From: Chloroflexota bacterium
Lineage (GTDB): Bacteria > Chloroflexota > Limnocylindria > Limnocylindrales > CSP1-4
Assembly (NCBI GenBank): GCA_003141245.1
Contig: PLLE01000041.1
Span: 316,412-373,234 of the forward strand
Length of the DNA stretch: 56,823 nt
Direction of reading: 5' to 3'
Of this stretch, positions 32,514 to 45,220 are shown in pieces (the stretch's first letter is position 1; every line of letters begins with the position of its first letter). Position numbers and translations under genes: made by a program. The notes under the pieces are model-generated. The model was given only the letters and a program-made list of their open reading frames with translations, was not told the origin of the DNA and ran no database searches.

Positions 32514-33956
32514 CTATCTTGCTGCCCCGTACGAGTCGCCGAGGATGACGCCGCGGGGCATCACGACGAGGCTGTAGGAGAAGGCCGGGAAGCCGCCGGT
32601 CCACGCGATCGGCGTCCAGGTGTGCCCATCGTACGAGAGCCAGGCCTTCTTTCCGTCGGTCTTCACGGCCAGGAAGACGTTCCCATTGGCAGAGATCAAG
32701 CCGTCCGGCGAGGTCACACAGTCGGTGCACGAGAGTGCGCCCAGGGGGCCGTTGCGGGCATCGTGCCAGGTCATGCCGCCGTCGGCCGACCAGGCCAGAC
32801 CGAAGGCCAGGGACATATCGTTGGCAATCGTGTGAAGAACCATCCCATCCCGGCCGAAATCTATGAAGTCGGCAGCGAAGGAGTACCCGCCCGAACTCCG
32901 GGTCCAGTTGCGCCCATCTCCCGACAACCACATCTCGTCGCCGAAAGTCGTCGTGTTGGATCCGTCGGCCATCGGATGGGGCGTGCCCATGAGGTAGAAG
33001 CGGCCCGCGTTGGTCTGGACGTGCGGCCCCCACGCTCCCTCCGTGCCGGCCGTTAGGTCGAAGGCCGTCTCCGGCGTCCAGTTCAGCCCATCGGTCGAGA
33101 ATTCGACCTTGAATCTCTCAGAGCTCCACCCCGAGTCGGGCAGGGGCGAAGCGAGGGTGGCGACGATTCCGGAATCCGTGCCGGCGATCGAGATCAGGTA
33201 GCCGGTCATGTTGGGCGAGCCTGCTTTGTGCCAGCCGACACCGTCGGTGCTGGTCCACGCCGCGGTGGGATACCTCGTCTCGGGGTCTACGGCCATGGCC
33301 AGCAGGCCGAACGGCGCCACGGACACGATCAGGTCCGTCGCGTCGATCGAAGTCACGGCAGTCCACGTCTGCCCATCGGGCGAAGTCCAAAGTCCGTGCG
33401 ACACTCCGCGCAACGCCGTAATCCACGATTGCGCGACCGACTCGGTCGCCACGAAGCCGCCCTTCCAGCGCAGCACCTGGGCGACGCCGTGCGAGGGATT
33501 GAACCCAACATTCTCCAGCATCGGGCTGTCAGCAGTGAGCTTCGTCCAGCTGAAACCCGTCCAACCGGTGGTAGCGCCCGGCGTGGTGAAACCGATCCCG
33601 ACCATCGTGGGGCCGGGGGATTCGGCCGGCGTCGTTTCGGCGAGCGAAGGCGTCGGGGTCACGGCTGTCCTTGACGCCGCGCTTGCCGTGGCAGACGGCG
33701 AAGGTCCGCCGACGACGTTCGATCGGACCGACAGCAACAGGCCTGCCAGGCTCACTGCCAGCACGACCGCCAGCGCAACCCCAATCGCGGGCACCACCCC
33801 AAATCGACCGCGAGGACGTCCGAAGGTGAATCGCATTCCCTTTCCCCTCTTCTCCGTGGCCTGGACCGCGGATCGATAGACCGAATCGGGCACGCCCGGT
33901 TGCGGAGGTTCGGCGATCTTGCGCAGTCGCCGCTCGATCTCAGGATCAAGTGTCAT
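32514..33956 (-). CDS. Single-pass membrane protein with extracytoplasmic BNR/Asp-box beta-propeller, ECF sigma partner (module A)
   Basis: A 480-residue protein: about 50 cytoplasmic residues (MTLDPEIERRLRKIAEPPQP), a membrane helix at 52-76, a Ser/Thr/Pro linker to about 125, then an outer domain with six Asp-box-like repeats (WTSPDGQTWTAV, WTSTDGVGWHKA, FSTDGLNWTPET, WLSGDGRNWTRS, WSADGGMTWHDA, WLSYDGHTWTPI), a sialidase-type propeller without visible sialidase residues. It overlaps the sigma gene by ATGA. The layout suggests an anti-sigma sensor, although the short inner part has no HxxxCxxC zinc motif. A similar protein lies at 43079-44458. Confidence 0.8.
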   Translation of the reverse strand: MTLDPEIERRLRKIAEPPQPGVPDSVYRSAVQATEKRGKGMRFTFGRPRGRFGVVPAIGVALAVVLAVSLAGLLLSVRSNVVGGPSPSATASAASRTAVTPTPSLAETTPAESPGPTMVGIGFTTPGATTGWTGFSWTKLTADSPMLENVGFNPSHGVAQVLRWKGGFVATESVAQSWITALRGVSHGLWTSPDGQTWTAVTSIDATDLIVSVAPFGLLAMAVDPETRYPTAAWTSTDGVGWHKAGSPNMTGYLISIAGTDSGIVATLASPLPDSGWSSERFKVEFSTDGLNWTPETAFDLTAGTEGAWGPHVQTNAGRFYLMGTPHPMADGSNTTTFGDEMWLSGDGRNWTRSSGGYSFAADFIDFGRDGMVLHTIANDMSLAFGLAWSADGGMTWHDARNGPLGALSCTDCVTSPDGLISANGNVFLAVKTDGKKAWLSYDGHTWTPIAWTGGFPAFSYSLVVMPRGVILGDSYGAAR

Positions 33957-34507
33957 GGCCGTGCCTTTCGGCTTTGCGCGTCGAGCTCCGCCCGAAGCGT
34001 TCGGATGGCGTAGTGGAGCCTGGACTTGACCGTGCCGGCAGGCAGTTTCAGCCGTTCGGCGATTTCCTCGACGGAGAGGTCGCGCCAGTAACGCAGCCCA
34101 ACCACGATCTGTTGATCGGCCGGGAGGGTCCGGACGAGCTGCCCGATCTCGTCTCTCGCGAGCGCTTCGCGGAACGGATCGCGAGCCGCCGGCAGCGCCG
34201 CGACGCCCTCATCCAGCTCCAGCTCGCGAACGCGGCCGCGTCCTCGCAGCCTGTCGTAGCAGACGTTGGCGACGATACGGTCGAACCAGGCCCCGAACCG
34301 ATCGGTCGTCTTGAGCCTGGGCCAGGCTTGCCAGGCCTTCTCGAGAGCATCCTGCGTCGCGTCCTCGGCTTCGGTCTGGTCGTGCAGCAGGAAGCCGGCC
34401 AGCCGGTACGCGCCGGGAATCTCCCGCTGAATCAGGCTCAGGAAGGCCGCCGCCTCGCCCGTTGCGGACCCCCTCAACGCCACCCGCCAGACTCCTTCCT
34501 CGAACAT
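33953..34507 (-). CDS. ECF-type RNA polymerase sigma factor (module A)
   Basis: A 184-residue ECF sigma factor. Region 2 is DQTEAEDATQDALEKAWQAW with TDRFGAWFDRIVANVCYDRL; region 4 is RYWRDLSVEEIAERLKLPAG TVKSRLHYAI, the DNA-binding helix-turn-helix. ACGGAGG lies 7 bases before ATG 34507. It is followed with an ATGA overlap by the membrane propeller protein, which is the probable regulator. Possible ECF-type sequence (GAACGTTCC) occurs upstream at about 34564-34574, but I cannot confirm autoregulation. Confidence 0.88.
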   Translation of the reverse strand: MFEEGVWRVALRGSATGEAAAFLSLIQREIPGAYRLAGFLLHDQTEAEDATQDALEKAWQAWPRLKTTDRFGAWFDRIVANVCYDRLRGRGRVRELELDEGVAALPAARDPFREALARDEIGQLVRTLPADQQIVVGLRYWRDLSVEEIAERLKLPAGTVKSRLHYAIRTLRAELDAQSRKARP

Positions 34508-34669
34508 CGCCGGCCTCCGTAAGCAACTCCGCTGGGAGTGTCCTTCCTAACGGAATCCGGACGCGGAACGTTCAATCGCGGCACCACTGTACGAGCACGT
34601 TGACAAACTAACCACACGCCGACTCTACGCACAGAAGCGAGCCACTGAGTCCACCGAGGAGGCGAGAGG
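34508..34669. other. Intergenic region upstream of sigma gene A
   Basis: Holds the sigma gene promoter on the minus strand, possibly TACAGT at 34586-34591, and on the plus strand a perfect -35 hexamer TTGACA at 34600-34605 with a weak TCTACG 20 bases on, pointing at the remnant gene. Local GC is lower than the surroundings. Confidence 0.35.
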
Positions 34670-43078: not shown

Positions 43079-44458
43079 CTACGGTTTGAGCTCGTGCCAG
43101 GTAGCCCCGCCGTCGTCAGTCGCGACTAGATGTTGCGGCATCGCGAAGGCGTAGTCGCAGGTCGTTAACCCTGGCCCCGTCTGGGGGCAGGGTGGGTACG
43201 GTTCACTGACCACCATCCAACCGTGGAGCGAATCGGCGAAGTCGATGGGGCCGCTGTTGTACGGCCAGGGTTCCCGGACGGCAATCGTCTGCCAGGTGGA
43301 GCCGGCGTCGATGGTGGCCCGCAACGTCGAGGGTGCCCACGGATCCAACACGACCCAGGTCGTGGGATCGACCAGCGACATCGTGAGAGCCCCTGGATTC
43401 TCGATGATCGACGTTGCCGTCCAGTGTGCACCGCGGTCGACCGTGCGATAGAACAGCTGCTGGCTGCTGATGCCTTCATTTCCGGGCATCGCGTCGTACT
43501 TGGCAACGAGGACCGCGCTGCCGTCGACGCCGACCATCTGCGCCGTGATGAAGTCCAGCTTGCCGCGGATCGAGCCGGGTACCGGCAGAGTGGCCTTCGT
43601 CCACGTGCGACCCCCGTTCGAGGTCGCCCAGATCGTATGGCTGTCCGTCAGCCAGCCGTGGTCCGCGTCGGCGAAGCAAAGGGTCAGAGGCCCGTAGAAG
43701 CCGTAAGGCCCAGGCATCGCTTTCACCTTGCCCGCGGTCGCCGTCCAATGCTGGCCGCCGTCGGTCGTCCTGAAGACATGTGCCTCCCGGTTCGAGCCTG
43801 ACTGATCGCCGACGGCGATGTAGCCGACCATGTCGGTCGGGAACGCTACGGCATCAGGCGCGATGGGTAGTGCGCTCTGGGCCCAGGTCCCGCAACCGTC
43901 GGTACTCGTCCACTGAGTCGTCCCGGAGATGATATGGATGATGTCGCCTGCCACGACGGCACCTAGCGGGCTCGTGACGTCGCCGCTCATTGGCCGCCAG
44001 CAGTCTCGCCAGCTCGACCCGTCGGTCACGATCAGCCGCGATCCTGTCAGGAGCCAGCCGCCGCTTACCGTCCGGTGCATCTCGAGGATCGACTCGTGTT
44101 CTGCCAGAGCGGGTCCGGTCGGCCCCTGGAGGGTAGGCCCGAGAGACGGCTGGGTTGAACCCGTGGGCACCGGCGATGCCGTGCCACTGGCGGCAACTGC
44201 ACTCGGAGAGCCGCTCGATCCGGAGGCGGCGCGGAAGCTCGCCCAGGCCCCGGCCCCGACGATCCCCGCGACCATCGCCACGATGGCAACCGCCCCCATG
44301 GCCAGGTTCCGGGCCGCCCGCCGACCTCGGCGCGCGCGGTCGCCTTGCTTGCGCAACTCGGTGGACGGGATCGGCATGGCCCGGGACGAAGCCGCGTACC
44401 AGCGACGCAGCAGCGTCTCCTCGTTGTCCTGGACGGGACGGTCTAGTGGCTTGTTCAT
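43079..44458 (-). CDS. Single-pass membrane protein with extracytoplasmic BNR/Asp-box beta-propeller, ECF sigma partner (module B)
   Basis: A 459-residue protein with the same plan as the one at 32514-33956: about 50 inner residues, a membrane helix at 51-74 (NLAMGAVAIVAMVAGIVGAG), a Ser/Thr/Pro linker to about 115, then an outer propeller with Asp-box-like repeats WTSTDGCGTWAQS, FRTTDGGQHWTAT, WATSNGGRTWTKA, YRTVDRGAHWTAT, ATIDAGSTWQTI and VATDDGGATWHEL. ATG 44458 overlaps the sigma stop as ATGA. The outer sequence is only loosely similar to module A, so duplication would be old. Probably a sensor or anti-sigma factor; not proven. Confidence 0.8.
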   Translation of the reverse strand: MNKPLDRPVQDNEETLLRRWYAASSRAMPIPSTELRKQGDRARRGRRAARNLAMGAVAIVAMVAGIVGAGAWASFRAASGSSGSPSAVAASGTASPVPTGSTQPSLGPTLQGPTGPALAEHESILEMHRTVSGGWLLTGSRLIVTDGSSWRDCWRPMSGDVTSPLGAVVAGDIIHIISGTTQWTSTDGCGTWAQSALPIAPDAVAFPTDMVGYIAVGDQSGSNREAHVFRTTDGGQHWTATAGKVKAMPGPYGFYGPLTLCFADADHGWLTDSHTIWATSNGGRTWTKATLPVPGSIRGKLDFITAQMVGVDGSAVLVAKYDAMPGNEGISSQQLFYRTVDRGAHWTATSIIENPGALTMSLVDPTTWVVLDPWAPSTLRATIDAGSTWQTIAVREPWPYNSGPIDFADSLHGWMVVSEPYPPCPQTGPGLTTCDYAFAMPQHLVATDDGGATWHELKP

Positions 44459-44997
44459 CGCTGTTCCTTCAGCTTCTTGCGTCCGCGGCTTGCCGCGGAC
44501 CGCACGGCGTTCGCCGCTATGCCGAGAATGGCCCCGGCCTCGGCGGCGTCGAGGTCTTCGAGCGCCGTGAGTACCAGCGCCGAACGCTCCAGAGCAGATA
44601 GCGCTCGGAAGCTGGCCCGGAGATCGAGCCACTCGATGCGGGCGTCGGTCCCGGGGGTGATGGCGACCGGCGCTCGGAGTGCGAGCGCACACCGCAGCCG
44701 GCGGAAGCGATCCGTCGCGTTGCGGCGCGTCGTGACCAGCAGCCACGGCAGGACCGGCGCCGACCAGTCGACCTCGGCCCGTCGATCCCACAGCCGGAGG
44801 AAGGCCTCCTGCGCCAGGTCCTCCGCAGCCGACCAATCGTTCGTCCAGGCGAGGGCGAAACGAAAGACCGGCAGCCACGCAGCCGCATACGCCGCCTCGA
44901 ATGCGCCAGCATCGGGATCGGGCACACTCGCGGCGACCCGCAGAGGCTGGCCAACTGCGGAGGAGGCCGGATTGGGTGCGGTAAGGTCGAGTGGCAT
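44455..44997 (-). CDS. ECF-type RNA polymerase sigma factor (module B)
   Basis: A 180-residue ECF sigma factor with region 2 DWSAAEDLAQEAFLRLWDRR and WLLVTTRRNATDRFRRLRC, and region 4 ALEDLDAAEAGAILGIAANA VRSAASRGRKKL. I start at ATG 44997 because it lies 8 bases after TACGGT, whereas a GTG at 45036 has no signal. It is followed by the propeller gene with ATGA overlap, exactly as in module A, but the two sigma factors are divergent in sequence. Confidence 0.85.
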   Translation of the reverse strand: MPLDLTAPNPASSAVGQPLRVAASVPDPDAGAFEAAYAAAWLPVFRFALAWTNDWSAAEDLAQEAFLRLWDRRAEVDWSAPVLPWLLVTTRRNATDRFRRLRCALALRAPVAITPGTDARIEWLDLRASFRALSALERSALVLTALEDLDAAEAGAILGIAANAVRSAASRGRKKLKEQR

Positions 44998-45132: not shown

Positions 45133-45220
45133 TGGTGGGCGAGGTCGGGGTCGAACCGACACGCCGCTTACGCGGCACCAGCTCCTAAGGCTGACGCGTC
45201 TGCCATTCCGCCACTCGCCC
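45133..45220 (-). tRNA. tRNA-Leu (anticodon UAG), CCA encoded
   Basis: Acceptor strands GGGCGAG (45220-45214) and CTCGCCC (45143-45137) pair fully, with discriminator A and an encoded CCA at 45135-45133. The anticodon arm is TCAGC-CTTAGGA-GCTGG with anticodon TAG, reading CUN/CUA leucine codons. A long variable arm (TGCCGCGTAAGCGGCGT) marks class II. The T-arm is GTCGG-TTCGACC-CCGAC. Confidence 0.95.

Follow-up and report, generated by a model that had tools for sequence, protein, structure and literature searches.

ECF sigma factors paired with a membrane anti-sigma factor are a kind of system that is already known. Class I anti-sigma domains average about 101 residues in four helices and often carry an HxxxCxxC motif (PMC7406223), and the genes of class I factors such as RseA, RsrA and RslA of M. 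tuberculosis, the partner of SigL, adjoin that of the ECF sigma factor, with a membrane tether in several of them. In class II, represented by CnrH/CnrY of Cupriavidus metallidurans (PDB 4CXF), the two short helices of CnrY suffice to block the ECF sigma factor, and sensing belongs to a separate periplasmic protein, CnrX (PMC7406223, PMC4598750). The RsgI proteins of Clostridium (Acetivibrio) thermocellum combine a conserved tether with swappable sensors, are encoded with SigI in several paralogous, autoregulated operons per genome, and release their sigma factor by stepwise proteolysis (PMC12203970, PMC6056542).

The window that we analyzed is a stretch of 56,823 nt (C6:316412-373234) of a 2.54 Mb assembly, 92% complete, of a soil-type Chloroflexota genome. 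It contains module A, an ECF sigma gene followed by the gene of a membrane protein (partner A), and a second such pair, module B (Table 1). Sigma A (184 aa from the ATG at 34507, 176 aa from an alternative GTG at 34483) consists of sigma2 and sigma4 domains only, as expected of an ECF (group 4) sigma factor; PF04542 and PF04545 were both over the Pfam cut-off, and TIGR02937 scored 82.1 vs a cut-off of 42.9. The start of sigma A is ambiguous in the window (34483-34507), with a Shine-Dalgarno-like sequence 5' of both the ATG and the in-frame GTG, and the ATG is unconserved at this position among orthologs. The first solved relative of the profile of its sigma clade was SigL of M. tuberculosis (E = 5e-26), the other nearest solved relatives were also ECF sigma factors, and the nearest named relatives of sigma A in a public scan came from Chloroflexi genomes from fens. 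Partner A has a 56-residue inner tail, one hydrophobic segment and a Ser/Thr/Pro linker, then six Asp-box-like repeats that begin at residues 192, 236, 287, 345, 390 and 441, and Pfam returned no match to it. The AlphaFold model, computed with nine sequences, had a mean pLDDT of 64, higher in the outer domain, and exhibited helices at residues 5-15 and 24-40 and a transmembrane helix at 58-74, followed by almost nothing but strands. In Foldseek the outer domain matched propellers of the Kelch, sialidase and sortilin types at E about 1e-7; the TM-scores were moderate and leave the number of blades unsettled, and the repeated S/T-x-D-G-x-(T)-W turns on this fold identify it as an Asp-box (BNR) beta-propeller. 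An earlier note, written from the letters alone, had described the ATGA overlap, a single-pass protein with about 50 inner residues and a six-repeat propeller outside, and an inner part lacking a zinc anti-sigma motif; both genes and their overlap were found at the positions it gave, on the minus strand, AlphaFold and Foldseek backed the all-beta propeller, and tail A has neither Cys nor His. The overlap of the stop codon of sigma A with the start codon of partner A may couple the translation of the two genes.

Table 1. Features of modules A and B in the window (positions are those of the window)
Feature	Position	Strand	Evidence
ECF sigma factor A	33953..34507	-	Pfam Sigma70_r2 55 bits, Sigma70_r4 51 bits, both over cut-off
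Partner A, single-pass membrane protein of 480 aa, putative tethered anti-sigma factor with outer beta-propeller	32514..33956	-	Layout, AlphaFold, Foldseek
ATGA overlap, sigma A stop/partner A start	33953..33956	-	Same -1 overlap in 137/155 clade members
Inner tail A, residues 1-56, free of Cys and His	33789..33956	-	Tail profile E 1.4e-10 in own genome (profile includes tail A), AlphaFold, conserved motif
Transmembrane helix, residues 57-75	33732..33788	-	Hydropathy peak 2.7; AlphaFold helix 58-74 or 56-76
Outer Asp-box beta-propeller, residues about 131-480, six Asp-box-like repeats	32517..33566	-	Repeats, strands, Foldseek
Putative autoregulated ECF promoter, TGAAC (34570-34574), N18, GTT (34549-34551)	34547..34574	-	Ortholog conservation, clade motif
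ECF sigma factor B, different sigma clade	44455..44997	-	Pfam r2 47 bits, r4_2 39 bits
Partner B, about 51-residue tail (second tail family), one transmembrane segment (52-70), Asp-box propeller	43079..44458	-	Sortilin-Vps10 43 bits, PSII_BNR 30 bits, over cut-offs

With SigI/RsgI the locus shares the multiplication of sigma/partner operons within a genome, their autoregulated promoters (candidate promoters in our case), and a short inner N-terminal domain followed by one transmembrane segment and interchangeable outer domains. It differs as follows: First, SigI has a SigI-C domain in place of sigma4, while sigma A carries sigma4 as well as sigma2. Second, partner A has no Pfam match to the RsgI N-terminal domain or to the periplasmic autocleavage domain. 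Third, the phylum and the outer domains are different. With CnrH/CnrY it shares an ECF sigma factor and a short, zinc-free inner tail; the short two-helix inner segment before a single transmembrane segment, which is characteristic of class II, is a prediction in tail A. In contrast to CnrY, which depends on CnrX, partner A has its putative sensor fused to the tail, and no homology of the tail to CnrY was detected (hhalign probability 0.3%). Unlike a class I domain, tail A lacks both the HxxxCxxC motif and the four-helix fold of about 100 residues. The best reading of these comparisons is that partner A would work like RsgI while being shaped like CnrY and, by the tests that we ran, homologous to neither.

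We built a sigma clade profile from six sigma paralogs of the genome that contains the window. At E 1e-25 this profile detected the clade in 94 of the 126 order genomes, with a maximum of 25 copies per genome; at E 1e-30 it detected the clade in 106 of the 177 class genomes and in 32 of the 46 genera. Among 155 distinct clade sigma genes taken from the class and order genomes and the public scan, 152 were followed by a gene whose product has a short tail and a transmembrane segment, the exact 4-base (-1) overlap being kept in 137. The tail profile scored at least 10 bits in 151/155 of the clade loci; since many of these tails had contributed to the profile, the decoy and tail-first tests weigh more than this figure. 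In the decoy test, 117 of 119 partners reached 10 bits vs 8 of 2514 decoy N-termini, and six of these eight were themselves partner proteins, taken from a different start codon or from elsewhere in the locus, the remaining two being unrelated. Searched against its own genome, the profile found seven genes below 1e-7, one next to each of the genome's seven clade sigma genes; the next match had an E-value of 0.23. When we searched 400 genomes of the phylum for the tail and transmembrane segment alone, matches appeared in 29 genomes, and an ECF sigma gene lay directly upstream in 39 of the 40 matches whose neighborhood was read, other Chloroflexota classes included. The pairing of sigma A with partner A is thus far beyond chance. 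The earlier note had staked its proposal on co-occurrence in relatives, and the proposal survived in both directions, from sigma to partner (152/155) and from tail to sigma (39/40). Column coupling between sigma factors and tails, computed on 152 pairs with a reduced alphabet and average-product correction and compared with shuffles within clades, exceeded the shuffles in total, with z about 4 for tight clades, and no site-specific signal rose over the shuffle maximum. Part of the overall correlation between sigma factors and tails could be due to genetic linkage alone. A search for natural sigma-tail fusions found none.

The tail is conserved as a pattern of its own. In 116 members it reads [DE]-L-E-x-x-L-R-x-h-h, a Pro-rich linker, P-x-x-L-x-x-x-[VL]-x-x-V-P and a basic stretch before the membrane, and the HxxxCxxC zinc motif occurred in none of these 116 clade tails. 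AlphaFold with tail A and 59 tails placed helices at residues 5-15 and 24-38, with a pLDDT of about 85 over residues 1-30. Pfam assigned no family to the 59 tails beyond single weak chance matches, and a comparison of the inner part with the PDB, which the earlier note had proposed as a check, gave nothing credible either by profile or by fold. Two NCBIfam families, the 'anti-sigma factor' NF052375 and the 'CU044_5270 family' NF038083, matched tails weakly and partially (best E 6.6e-5 and 0.0026), at 13-18 bits overall and 15-16 bits for the 'anti-sigma factor' model vs a cut-off of 100 in the members examined, and the matches covered mainly helix 2 and the transmembrane segment. Elsewhere in the genome, three ECF sigma genes (C46:58338, L033; C6:191482, L049; C26:52216, L018) overlap partners with inner Cys pairs and His, as expected of zinc-type anti-sigma factors, so both kinds coexist in this genome. 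At two loci of other genomes (L348, G158:C2; L351, G100:C31), several tail-plus-transmembrane genes stand within about 12 kb, each behind its own sigma gene, and the W/F-L..G...LPD pattern in their tails is likely a third tail variant.

Module B, at 43079-44997, had been taken in the earlier note for a recurrence of the same plan. The layout does recur, with a propeller recognized by Pfam in the partner, but module B is a parallel second family and not a copy of A. Sigma B is 25% identical to sigma A, and 25 of the 126 order genomes encode homologs of it. Wherever the gene downstream of a B-type sigma gene could be read, in 28 cases, it encoded a partner with a tail and a transmembrane segment, and the B-type tail, often only 36-45 residues long, reads roughly D-x-I-L-x-E-W...R-P...P. 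Immediately upstream of module B is a tRNA gene (45136-45220, minus strand). The A-type propeller was found in at least three B-type sigma pairs from three genomes (L375, which is the same locus as L063, L378 and L380). The outer propeller has thus passed from one system to the other, and the tails have remained with their respective sigma clades. No other natural evidence speaks as strongly for the tail, rather than the propeller, as the part that would face the sigma factor.

Outer domains were also exchanged within the clade of sigma A. In 40 pairs of partners the sigma factors were at least 60% identical while the outer domains had no detectable similarity, and in 72 pairs the sigma factors were less than 45% identical while the outer domains were similar. 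Asp-box propellers, Kelch plus Asp-box, PD40, PepSY, DUF4232, SecDF-P1-head and an NfeD-type membrane protease all occurred among the outer domains. The earlier note had inferred a defined signalling family from the recurring plan: the sigma/partner pairing indeed recurs, but the family is defined by the sigma clade and the tail, and the propeller is only one of its many outer domains. Close relatives of module A at two loci (L198, G039:C60; L199, G046:C25) lie within tandem arrays of such modules, and their A-like partner has acquired a Kelch propeller, placed between the membrane and the Asp-box propeller. In a branch that includes a locus of the genome that contains the window (C6:298029-298520, L024; minus-strand partner) and its orthologs L085-L088, L190, L168 and L193, NfeD1b_N, NfeD membrane and NfeD C-terminal domains stand behind the same kind of tail, and the NfeD similarity cluster comprised 22 of 152 partners. 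NfeD-bearing partners might process themselves or other anti-sigma factors. At another locus of the genome that contains the window (C21:22464-22901, L034), an ECF sigma gene shares an overlap with an O6-methylguanine DNA methyltransferase gene (PF01035, 95 bits), which suggests a sigma/DNA-repair operon.

The diversity of these outer domains, among them PepSY and the probable membrane protease NfeD, together with the lack of an identified ligand, would also suit a tail that is an anti-sigma factor behind a propeller that senses no ligand but serves as an adhesive, scaffold or wall-stress module, release then being triggered otherwise, e.g. by envelope stress or NfeD self-processing. Conserved tails that repeatedly exchange folded propellers and other binding-type domains instead match the swappable-sensor pattern of RsgI (PMC12203970), and we regard the non-sensing propeller as unlikely, though it is the alternative to be taken most seriously.

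The upstream regions of the clade contained a common promoter motif. Within about 260 bases 5' of the sigma domain, GAAC-N18-GTC was present in 74 of 117 clade upstreams vs 1.9 in shuffles (94/151 with more loci), and in the controls it was found in 1/117 coding sequences and in 0/51 and 1/26 members of other ECF sigma groups. The sole conserved upstream block in the module A orthologs examined is GATTGAAC...TTCCGTCTGGAAGG, which reads TGAACGTTCCGCGTCCGGATTCCGTTAG in module A itself (34574-34547). The motif of module A is the GTT variant and, as a motif, has the -35 AAC element of an ECF-type promoter. Clade operons thus look autoregulated by functional ECF sigma factors. Genome-wide, the motif had 12 matches in the genome of module A vs 1 in the control, most of them inside long open frames, and these matches identified no wider regulon beyond autoregulation.

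The promoter motif alone leaves the sign of the partner's action undecided, and an autoregulatory promoter would also suit a self-amplifying sigma factor whose partner is a positive co-factor, a membrane recruiter or an effector of the same operon, with sigma activity set mainly by transcription; that the tail has no detectable homology to a proven anti-sigma domain points the same way. Against such a partner, the gene order, the overlap and the tethered inner helical tail make up the usual anti-sigma arrangement (PMC6056542, PMC4598750). The tail moreover keeps strictly to sigma genes, no matter which outer domain it carries, and an autoregulated sigma factor that had no inhibitor would be prone to locking on, which makes a non-inhibitory partner improbable in our judgment. 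Four-base overlaps are common between adjacent genes of compact genomes, but the notion that sigma A and partner A are unrelated genes overlapping by chance is refuted by the co-occurrence data, with the pairing in 152/155 and 39/40 cases and the sigma clade in 32 of 46 genera of the class.

We therefore consider, with a probability of roughly three in four, that the pair is an autoregulated operon of an ECF sigma factor and a membrane-tethered, zinc-free anti-sigma factor with swappable sensors, in which we infer that the tail binds and inhibits the sigma factor until a sensed ligand leads to its release. In such an operon, the inner tail, predicted to consist of two short amphipathic helices and a Pro-containing linker, would tether the sigma factor to the membrane and keep it silent, probably by masking its sigma4 and sigma2 surfaces in the way that CnrY masks those of CnrH. 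The outer propeller would bind something extracellular, and ligand binding would alter the partner or open it to proteolysis, releasing the sigma factor, which would then start transcription of its own operon at TGAAC-N18-GTY and, presumably, of other genes. The tail would be the conserved, sigma-matched part, and the outer domain a plug-in sensor swapped among paralogs. The genome encodes an M50 site-2-type protease; M50 proteases were also found in all 14 control genomes and are nearly universal, so that their presence is not specific. At somewhat less than even odds, we further propose tentatively that the tails represent an unclassified anti-sigma domain family, very short, zinc-free and two-helical (about 36-45 residues in many B-type partners), which carries interchangeable outer sensors in a Chloroflexota class with up to 25 sigma copies per genome, one branch being fused to an NfeD-type protease that might release its own sigma factor.

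A literature search found no paper on this combination of sigma factor, tail and propeller. As far as we searched, the tail family, its strict sigma pairing across the class, the exchange of outer domains across two sigma clades and the size of the expansion are new; the 2021 ECF classification (Casas-Pastor 2021) lay outside the comparison, and these groups may have been described before. Uncultured members of this Chloroflexota class appear to have evolved a large private set of outside-to-inside transcription switches, which standard family libraries miss. With the tail motif, the partner of each such sigma factor can be identified and named, and with the promoter motif regulons can be mapped, while the swapped outer domains allow one to ask which part sets the sigma specificity and which sets the signal. 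The arrangement would extend the RsgI principle, a conserved tether with a swappable sensor, to true ECF sigma factors.
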